NCBI GenBank assembly: GCA_025359215.1
Contig: JANYHE010000085.1
Span: 1-43,260 of the forward strand
DNA from: Hyphomicrobiales bacterium
Lineage (GTDB): Bacteria > Pseudomonadota > Alphaproteobacteria > Rhizobiales > Aestuariivirgaceae
Reading direction: 5' to 3'
Length of the DNA stretch: 43,260 nucleotides
In this document: piece by piece, positions 25,707-27,902 of the stretch
How the letters are laid out: every line of letters begins with the position of its first letter
Position numbering within the stretch: position 1 is the first letter of the stretch
The notes under the pieces: model-generated
The model's input: the letters and a program-made list of their open reading frames with translations, nothing else
Databases searched by the model: none
Told to the model about the DNA's origin: nothing
Translations under genes and position numbers: made by a program

Positions 25707-27158
25707 ATGCTGGTTCTTGATCATGATAGAGCAGGGGGATATTGGGGCGCAGTTTATGTGTTCGCCGCCATCAAAGGTTTGCAAGTGATCATCGATGGCC
25801 CCGTTGGCTGCGAAAACCTGCCTGTGACTTCTGTACTGCATTACACCGATGCGCTTCCACCGCATGAGCTTCCCATTGTTGTCACTGGCCTCGGCGAAGA
25901 AGAACTGGGCCAACACGGCACTGAAGGTGCCATGCGCCGCGCCCATAAAACGCTTGATCCGGGTTTGCCCAGTGTGGTGGTCACAGGTTCCATTGCTGAA
26001 ATGATTGGTGGTGGTGTCACCCCACAAGGCACTGGCATTCAACGCTTCCTGCCACGCACCATTGATGAAGACCAATGGCAATGTGCTGATCGTGCATTAA
26101 TGTGGCTGTGGACCGAGTTTGGTGCAAAGAAAAAAAACGCCACCACGCGCAAACCAAAAGTCGATGGTGAAAAGCCTCGCGTTAATATTATTGGCACAAT
26201 TTATGGCACATTCAATTCGCCATCAGACTTGGCGGAAATCACCAGGCTTGTTGAAGGCATTGGCGCTGAAGTAAATCTATCGTTCCCAATGGGCAGCCAT
26301 TTGGCCGAAGTGCCACGCCTTGCCAATGCTGATGTAAACATTTGCATGTACCGCGAATTTGGCCGCAAGCTTTGCGAACAATTGGATCGCCCCTATTTGC
26401 AAGCGCCCATTGGCTTGCATTCCACAACGAAATTCTTGCGCACCTTGGGTGAGCTATTGGGCCTTGACCCAGAGCCCTTCATCGAAAAAGAAAAACACAC
26501 CACTATTAAGCCACTCTGGGATTTGTGGCGCTCTGTTACACAAGATTTTTTCGGCACCGCAAGTTTTGGCATTGTTGCCAGCGACACTTATGCGCGTGGT
26601 GTGCGCAACTTCTTAGAAGAAGAAATGGGCTTGCCCTGCAACTTTGCAGTGCCGCGCATTGCGGGCGCAAAAACAGACAATGCAGCCGTGCGTAGAATGA
26701 TCAAAGAAACGCCACCGCTCATTTTGTTCGGCTCGTTCAATGAACGCATGTACATGGCTGAAGCTGGTGCAAAGTGCGCCTATATTCCCGCTTCATTTCC
26801 AGGCGCCATCATTCGCCGCCACACCGGAACTCCCTTCATGGGATATGGTGGTGCTACGTACATTATCCAAGAAGTCTGCAACGGGCTTTTCGATATGTTG
26901 TTCAACATTATTCCGTTGGGCACGGAGTTGGATAAAGTTGATCCCACACCAGCCACCAATAACCGCATGATTGATTGGAGCGATAACGCCCGCGCCATGC
27001 TGGACGAAATTGTGGAAAAGCAACCGGTTTTGGTGCGCATTTCGGCCGCTAAAAAATTACGCGACAGTGCAGAACGGCTGGCCCGTTCTTCAGCCGCAGA
27101 GCGTGTTGAAGAACAAGATGTTTTAAAGGCCAGCCGTGTGCTGGCTGGTGTTGAGTAA
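25707..27158 (+). CDS. bchZ: Chlorophyllide a reductase subunit Z
   Basis: BchZ completes the BchYZ catalytic unit. The 483 residues begin [20 protein letters not shown] and contain [20 protein letters not shown], where the Cys is a likely cluster ligand, then [17 protein letters not shown]-like and [12 protein letters not shown] regions typical of nitrogenase-like subunits. It starts two bases after bchY. Rhodobacter puf transcription begins partly within the bchZ 3' region; pufQ follows 21 bases downstream here. Confidence 0.96.
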
Positions 27159-27179
27159 ATCAAGGGAGACCATGAGACC

Positions 27180-27377
27180 ATGAGCATATCAGTGAAGCAT
27201 AAAAGCAAACCAGGCGAACTTGAATTCAAGTTGCTCTTGGCCTTCATTCTTCCGGTTTTTCTGGTCGCTACGATTATTAAGCGCGTGATGCCTTGGAACT
27301 GGGGCAGTGATCAACGTTCCCTTTTCGCCGCTACACGCTGCGCTGCCTATAGCTGTATTCCGTTCGTCTTCATGTGA
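27180..27377 (+). CDS. pufQ: PufQ
   Basis: A 65-residue protein with one TM helix (LEFKLLLAFILPVFLVATII) in the normal pufQ position between bchZ and pufBA. The basic N-terminus, single helix and a C-terminus resembling the ARAWSEARTITPMIF-like end of Rhodobacter PufQ support the call. PufQ is linked to bacteriochlorophyll delivery or formation, and its mechanism is not settled. ATG 27180 follows GGGAG; another ATG at 27172 only opens a three-codon frame. Confidence 0.8.
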   Translation: MSISVKHKSKPGELEFKLLLAFILPVFLVATIIKRVMPWNWGSDQRSLFAATRCAAYSCIPFVFM

Positions 27378-27394
27378 AGATTGAACGGCTCGCC

Positions 27395-27462
27395 TTTCAT
27401 CTGGGAGACTGGATGAAATCTCGCCCCGGGGATTGCCGGGGTAATTGGGCCCGCAAGGGTCC
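27395..27462 (+). promoter_or_regulatory. Three consecutive hairpins between pufQ and pufB
   Basis: TTTCATC (27395-27401) pairs with GATGAAA (27412-27418) around a loop holding GGGAG. CCCCGG (27424-27429) pairs with CCGGGG (27436-27441). GGGCCC (27447-27452) pairs with GGGTCC (27457-27462), using one G-U pair, across the GNRA tetraloop GCAA. There is no T-run, so they are not terminators. They suit mRNA stabilisation, processing or translational control in front of pufBA. Confidence 0.6.
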
Positions 27463-27487
27463 CAGCCGGAGTAGAAAACATGGCTGA
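27413..27487 (+). CDS. Putative 24-codon leader ORF upstream of pufB (pufK-like)
   Basis: ATG 27413 is preceded by GGGAG at 5 bases, the same signal used by pufQ, and opens 24 codons ending at TGA 27485-27487, eight bases inside pufB. The peptide starts MKSRPGDC and is rich in Arg and Lys. Its codons run through two hairpins, and its start ATG sits in the arm of a third. A short orfK/pufK directly before pufB is known in Rhodobacter sphaeroides and is implicated in translational control of pufBA. Sequence similarity to that peptide is not claimed; position and signals are the evidence. Confidence 0.45.
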
Positions 27488-27710
27488 TAATAACCGATCT
27501 GGCAGCATGTCAGGTCTCACCGAAGCGGAAGCCAGGGAATTCCATGGTGTCTTCGTTACGAGCTTCATTATCTTCACGGTAATCGCGATCATCGCGCATT
27601 TTCTCGTGTGGCAATGGCGCCCGTGGCTCCCAGGAGTTGATGGTTACAAAACTTCACAAGTAGAAAACGTTATGCCTGCGGCTGTACAGCCAATGGCTGA
27701 CTTTGTTTGA
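27480..27710 (+). CDS. pufB: LH1 antenna beta subunit with extended C-terminus
   Basis: PufB carries bacteriochlorophyll in the LH1 ring. Residues [20 protein letters not shown] then [20 protein letters not shown] give the family core: the His of IIAHF ligates the pigment and WQWRPWL is the helix end. The 76-residue length exceeds the usual ~50: about 24 extra residues ([20 protein letters not shown] and ADFV) follow the motif and should lie on the periplasmic side. GGAG precedes ATG 27480 by 8 bases. Confidence 0.94.
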
Positions 27711-27722
27711 GGAGAAAATAAC

Positions 27723-27902
27723 ATGTGGCGCATTTGGCTAATGTTTGATCCAAGACGCACGTTGGTGGCTTTGTTCACCTTCTTGTTCGTGTTGGCGATT
27801 ATCATCCACTTCATTTTGTTGTCAACGAACCGCTTCAACTGGATTGAAGGGCCTCGTAAAGCAGCATTCTTGGATGTCCAAACAACTGAGATGGTCGCTT
27901 AA
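27723..27902 (+). CDS. pufA: LH1 antenna alpha subunit
   Basis: A 59-residue alpha chain partnering PufB. It begins [20 protein letters not shown], a standard alpha N-terminus, continues with [20 protein letters not shown], where His ligates bacteriochlorophyll and the Trp lies near the pigment, and ends in a short polar tail. GGAGAAA lies before the ATG. It is 12 bases after pufB and precedes a strong hairpin. Confidence 0.95.

Follow-up and report, generated by a model that had tools for sequence, protein, structure and literature searches.

The window, by which we mean the whole stretch of 43,260 nucleotides analysed here, is a fragment of a Hyphomicrobiales-type genome, and its closest named relatives (L030-L033) carry a Hyphomicrobiales label. 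It contains bchZ (NCBIfam TIGR02014), a short frame at the place of pufQ, the light-harvesting gene pufB, whose ATG stands at 27480, a second light-harvesting frame and two reaction-centre frames (Pfam Photo_RC). The features in and around the gap that precedes pufB, which is the subject of this analysis, are collected in Table 1.

Table 1. Genes, hairpins and other features around the start of pufB (window coordinates).
Feature	Position	Strand	Evidence
Frame of 65 aa in bchZ-pufB interval, at place of pufQ	27180-27377	+	ORF list; stop 27375-27377 in hairpin P1
Hairpin P1, 11 pairs, over stop codon of upstream frame	27360-27388	+	5 genomes: 96.4% of cells paired, 4/11 compensated
Hairpin P2, 10 bp, GAGA loop; contains GGGAG (27403-27407), leader start codon (27413-27415) in 3' arm	27395-27418	+	5 genomes: 100% paired, 3/10 compensated, including start-codon pair
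Match to covariance model R1	27407-27482	+	E 2.7e-10 (training row); sole confident match in whole window genome, next best E 0.97
Lineage-specific leader frame of 24 codons, at place of pufK	27413-27487	+	Open in 5/5 close genomes
5' strand of possible pseudoknot helix S1, UCU (CCC in most relatives)	27419-27421	+	Suggestive
Hairpin P3, 7 bp (GCCCCGG/CCGGGGU), loop GGAUUG	27423-27442	+	5 genomes: 100% paired, 1/7 compensated; wider set: 93.3% of cells paired, 6/7 compensated
Hairpin P4, 6 bp, GCAA (GNRA) loop	27447-27462	+	5 genomes: 4/6 pairs compensated; wider set: 91.2% of cells paired
Hairpin P5 around pufB ribosome site (GGAG, 27468-27471) and start codon	27463-27486	+	Folding; invariant in 5 genomes
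pufB, LH1 beta subunit, 76 aa	27480-27710	+	ORF list; Pfam LHC; NCBIfam NF040862, E 5.4e-24
Second LHC frame at pufA place	27723-27902		Pfam/NCBIfam profile searches

The first-pass annotation had named the frame before the gap pufQ, and both its size and its place are right for that gene. However, searches of Pfam and NCBIfam assigned the frame to no family, although an annotated PufQ (L188) was matched by Pfam at E 2.2e-40; BLASTP of the frame with that same protein gave E 0.041. The frame is not recognised as PufQ; it is perhaps a diverged PufQ or another small membrane protein, and related frames occur at that place in other genomes, as upstream of pufB in L157 (BLASTP E 6e-6). The last codons and the stop of this frame fall within hairpin P1, and because the pairs of P1 are kept, with four of them compensated, the 3' end of the upstream gene is seemingly also under RNA constraint.

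Folding yielded five consecutive hairpins (P1-P5) between positions 27360 and 27486. Three had been described before: the hairpins proved real, both by folding and in relatives, but the region holds five of them. The minimum free energy of positions 27340-27520 was -74.5 kcal/mol, compared with -59.3 +/- 4.6 for shuffled sequences (z -3.3, 0/200), and folding of 27356-27489 gave a z of -5.2. The same five hairpins are predicted in L030-L033, whose PufB proteins are 80-91% identical to that of the window; single-sequence z values of the five genomes range from -2.7 to -5.2, and equally stable shuffles were obtained three times in 200 for L033 and never for the other close genomes. The comparison of relatives for compensatory changes that had been called for came out in favour of the structure: across the window and L030-L033, 99.1% of 215 cells are paired, 12 of 43 pairs have changed on both sides, and all five hairpins are kept in the four relatives, a level of pairing that none of 500 shuffles attained and that slid-partner controls (28-55% paired) did not approach. 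P4 is mostly rewritten among these genomes while its stem is retained, and its loops read GCAA, GAAA, GAAA and GUAA in four genomes and are longer in L033. This last genome also shows a change of the start-codon pair of P2 from U-A to C-G, such that the AUG of the leader frame becomes GUG. P5 is without covariation support in the close group because it is invariant in the five genomes. The five hairpins before pufB are a conserved RNA structure, well beyond what chance would produce.

Many proteobacterial pufB leaders share an architecture that consists of P2, often (U)CCC, P3 with a loop that starts GGG, a linker UAA(C), P4 with its GNRA loop, and the ribosome site, and the AA of the linker and the GG of the loop are nearly invariant unpaired positions. 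P3 and P4, scored together on 73 distinct rows, were 92.5% paired with 8/11 pairs compensated (0/500 shuffles; slid controls 27-43%). These pairing counts, and those for the slid pseudoknot, include a stray antisense match in alignment A2 (L016:1557-1631), which was left out of the 71-row pseudoknot counts, the A2 permutation counts and the GNRA counts. P4 is present as a stem of four base pairs in 47/73 rows, and 32 of those 47 carry a GNRA loop.

We searched for the element with R1, a covariance model derived from a 36-row alignment (A1) that includes the window among its training rows. At E<=1e-3, R1 matched 60/90 pufB loci, namely 32/32 training rows and 28/58 others; the set comprised 90 of 92 non-redundant loci and near-identical copies, with L002-L004 included, and five loci outside it (L015, L016, L018, L130 and L131) were covered by another R1 search, which matched 4/5. 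Placement was uniform, with the ATG of the R1 match at most 12 nt from PufB residue 1 in 60/60 matching loci, some of which are labelled Alpha-, Beta- (Variovorax, Methylibium) and Gammaproteobacteria. Among 289 genomes of the host class, nine matches scored at least 36 bits, eight of them directly before pufB and the ninth before the frame that lies upstream of it in the operon; 17 weaker matches in these genomes (at most 30 bits, E 2.2e-5 to 0.009) fell at loci without an LHC gene. At E<1e-4, 40 genomes with pufB gave 27 matches, of which 26 lay at pufB and the other at the upstream frame; this set is not independent, since 11 of the genomes supplied training rows and seven were chosen for their matches in the class survey. 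The model missed 30/90 loci (E<=1e-3), 14/40 genomes (E<1e-4) and 13/21 host-class genomes with an LHC match. Because R1 matched 24/31 leaders that leave no room for a pufQ-sized gene (as well as 35/58 of those with room), the element does not depend on such a gene. Judged from sequence comparison, a structured leader before pufB is conserved across Alpha-, Beta- and Gammaproteobacteria, with many pufB leaders missed by R1.

One genome of this survey contains a second copy of the element (L157:1501-1576, minus strand), situated before the frame upstream of pufB. The upstream-frame copy recurs on the minus strand in L342, a second species of the same genus, and 4/17 genomes of that family match; in the two species it lies about 390 nt from the copy at pufB, and the start of the upstream frame (MAE) resembles the start of PufB.

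The leaders that we infer to belong to Rhodobacteraceae were compared separately, with 110 leaders drawn from 120 matching genomes among 295 searched (10 left out). These leaders share P3 and a start hairpin, and P4 is absent from its place in them. S1, P3 and the start hairpin together comprise 18 pairs, which were 93.0% paired, with 15/18 compensated (12/14 without S1); none of 500 shuffles was as high, and slid controls reached 40-58%. The start hairpin, which surrounds the ribosome site and is the counterpart of P5, covaries in this family. Of the 78 leaders that show the pattern of its inner stem at the ribosome site, 38 have UUCC-GGA-GGAA and 24 have AUCC-GGA-GGAU. The P3 loop starts GGG in 91/109 leaders. 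L210, which we take to be the R. sphaeroides 2.4.1 genome because its pufB coordinates fit, retains the P3 hairpin at the element (L210:1635-1699, minus strand), with a loop CAGCAU that lacks GGG, and pufK runs over it.

The recurrence of CCC before P3 and of GGG in its loop raises the possibility of an H-type pseudoknot, which can form in 53/71 rows and, in the window, would pair the loop bases GGA (27430-27432) with the S1 strand; its loop and stem lengths fit the classical geometry rules for such folds. Outside Rhodobacteraceae, the pairing of each flank with its own loop exceeded that with permuted partners (521.6 vs 373.5 +/- 25.8, 0/2000). Within Rhodobacteraceae the signal was less clear (708.2 vs 666.2 +/- 16.8, 11/2000), and the A2 set showed a smaller excess (30 vs 23.5, 8/2000), which was not significant for its loops other than GGGA (345/2000). 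Moreover, slid controls for S1 reached similar covariation scores outside Rhodobacteraceae, and S1 by itself showed no excess over column shuffles in Rhodobacteraceae. An H-type pseudoknot at P3 is therefore suggestive, not proven.

We lean, by a modest degree, towards reading the gap before pufB as a conserved structured leader that forms the protected and translation-gating 5' end of a processed pufBA mRNA. The helices, their compensatory evolution and the position of the strong model matches before pufB are what the sequences themselves provide; protection from decay and gating of pufB initiation by the leader would be functions borrowed by analogy from Rhodobacter. In R. capsulatus, RNase E is reported to cleave within pufQ, giving rise to a pufBALMX mRNA of greater stability (PMC6238624), and structure in the 5' UTR to stabilise pufBA (PMC7148126, citing Heck et al., 1996 and others). 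By this analogy, whatever part of the transcript lies upstream would be removed by RNase E, and the hairpins, compactly stacked, would then become the protected 5' end of a long-lived pufBA(LM) mRNA, with the folded end blocking end-dependent decay and P5, at the start of pufB, limiting the loading of ribosomes until it is opened. The result would be LH1 made in controlled excess over reaction centres, and the short frame of the window (as well as pufK of R. sphaeroides) would be a later overlay that may be translated and may help to open the structure. Several observations speak against this explanation: the leaders of Rhodobacteraceae are without P4, R1 misses many loci, the gene upstream is no recognisable pufQ, and S1 exceeds neither column shuffles in Rhodobacteraceae nor slid controls elsewhere.

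The conservation of the linker AA, the loop GG and the GNRA loop also counts against it, as it exceeds what a plain stabiliser would need and hints at a partner or at tertiary contacts. Such a partner is central to an alternative that we consider unlikely, in which a putative sensor, formed by P3 or its pseudoknot together with the GNRA hairpin, would bind a metabolite (e.g., a tetrapyrrole) or a protein and so set access to the hairpin at the pufB start. The near-invariant unpaired positions, the classical geometry of the possible pseudoknot, the covarying hairpin around the ribosome site and the association with one gene speak for a sensor. However, metabolite switches are rarely tied to one structural gene, and we count this against it.

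The first-pass annotation had favoured a different explanation, namely a translated leader peptide of the pufK type: ribosomes translating 27413-27487 would unfold the hairpins and terminate where pufB begins. In a fuller form of this model, the rare codons of the frame would set the pace at which ribosomes enter. The layout on which it was based is all there: the GGGAG precedes the 24-codon frame, the last base of which is base 8 of pufB, the start codon sits in an arm of P2, and the codons cross P3 and the GCAA-looped P4. The analogy of position with pufK is likewise sound: in the presumed R. sphaeroides genome (L210), pufK lies at the same place, with a GGGAGG ribosome site and a start in the same-place hairpin, crosses P3 and stops a single base short of the pufB ATG. 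The frame is open in the window and its four close relatives, with ATG in four and GTG, which is still a start, in one, and the indel seen in the loop of P4, being 3 nt long, leaves it intact. The overlap with pufB holds in part, as the stop precedes pufB in L033, the most distant of the five; in the other four genomes it is a TGA inside the Met-Ala-Asp codons of PufB and so belongs to PufB's own coding sequence.

What counts against the peptide is its pattern of change. Synonymous and non-synonymous codon changes in the leader frame number 1/4 between the window and L030, 2/2 for L031 and 1/8 for L032, as opposed to 8/4, 7/5 and 20/10 for pufB in the same pairs; unlike pufB, the peptide shows no purifying selection visible in these comparisons, and P4 preserves pairs rather than residues. 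Rare codons make up 5/23 of the leader frame vs 6% in 22 long frames of the window, which places it in the lowest 1% of random 23-codon sets, but this rarity fits non-coding DNA as well as a pufK-like leader. Alignment of the leader peptide with the pufK peptide, both very short, returned nothing at E<=100. Frames led by a Shine-Dalgarno site and ending at most 12 nt from the pufB start occur in 31/138 non-redundant leaders, a slight excess over the 19.2 +/- 4.0 expected from shuffling (maximum 30 in 60 rounds), which may be explained by the composition of the hairpins. Among the 110 Rhodobacteraceae leaders, 19 have any ATG frame ending within that distance, two (the presumed R. sphaeroides L210, and L211) have the pufK arrangement, and the 50 upstream ATGs, found in 42 leaders, show no preference of frame (20/16/14). 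The substitution pattern and the frame statistics led us to set aside the leader peptide as a conserved unit; homology with pufK is not supported either, and we regard control by its translation as improbable. From these comparisons, the conserved object is the RNA, which occurs also where no such frame exists, and the short frame looks like a lineage-specific local extra rather than a conserved gene.

Stable GC-rich hairpins between cistrons might suggest that transcription is terminated or attenuated ahead of pufB, once the upstream frame has been passed. This is highly improbable, since neither strand of 27360-27486 has a terminator-like site and both sites found in 27150-27750 lie inside pufB.

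Our preferred reading, that of a structured and protective mRNA leader, connects with what has been described in Rhodobacter. In R. capsulatus, a structure at the same place, between pufQ and pufB, has been credited with stabilising pufBA mRNA (Heck et al., 1996, as cited in PMC7148126). As far as that account goes, the structure is described for one species, whereas the helices reported here covary across three classes, and the P3/P4 motif, the possible pseudoknot and the start hairpin go beyond that description. We thus regard the structure before pufB and its role in stability as already known for R. capsulatus, and a covarying leader across proteobacterial phototrophs as new. The frame of the window resembles pufK of R. 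sphaeroides (Gong and Kaplan, 1996, as described in PMC5725709) in being short, starting in P2, running across P3 and ending at the start of pufB. That source describes pufK as rich in rare codons and proposed as a gate for ribosome entry to pufBA. The likeness ends with the peptide of the window, which is dissimilar and unconstrained, and with the CAGCAU loop noted above.

Structured RNAs before photosynthesis genes are not without precedent. The PhotoRC-I, PhotoRC-II, psaA and psbNH motifs (Weinberg et al., 2010, PMC2864571) are, as that source presents them, cyanobacterial or marine and precede psbA, psaAB and other genes. These motifs are in Rfam and were unmatched here: in Rfam 15 the window had no match at gathering scores, and searches with 12 loci and with positions 27300-27530 returned only E 2.4-6.8, such that no known Rfam family was recognised in either the window or the 12 loci. 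Among the open-licence PMC papers searched, we found no description of the element. A bolder proposal, which we consider possible though on balance doubtful, is that these leaders form an undescribed pan-proteobacterial RNA family, combining a compact pseudoknot with a GNRA hairpin, that would sense a signal or partner and set the synthesis of LH1; the pufK model developed for R. sphaeroides in the 1990s would then rest on a frame laid over a degenerate copy.

The ratio of reaction centres to LH1 units is about 1:14 (PMC10253847). Work on how one operon delivers this excess of LH1 has centred on Rhodobacter, where it dealt with mRNA decay and, for R. sphaeroides, with pufK. Because a conserved and covarying element is present whether or not the leader has room for pufQ, the question can be put to the test in many phototrophs, and R. 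sphaeroides, given that the usual GGG is missing from its P3 loop, may not be a typical model.

Two observations concern light-harvesting genes elsewhere. The contig L071, labelled Longimicrobiales, encodes a PufB relative 59% identical to that of the window and gave no R1 match at E<=10. Several genomes of one genus (L019, L021-L023 and L025-L029) have another gene of LHC-beta type, which follows a pufC-like frame and has a leader of its own, about 60 nt long and similar among these genomes, with gggaaacctgcgtgcaggtccagcacgaaacc in several; by eye, this leader is unlike the pufB element.
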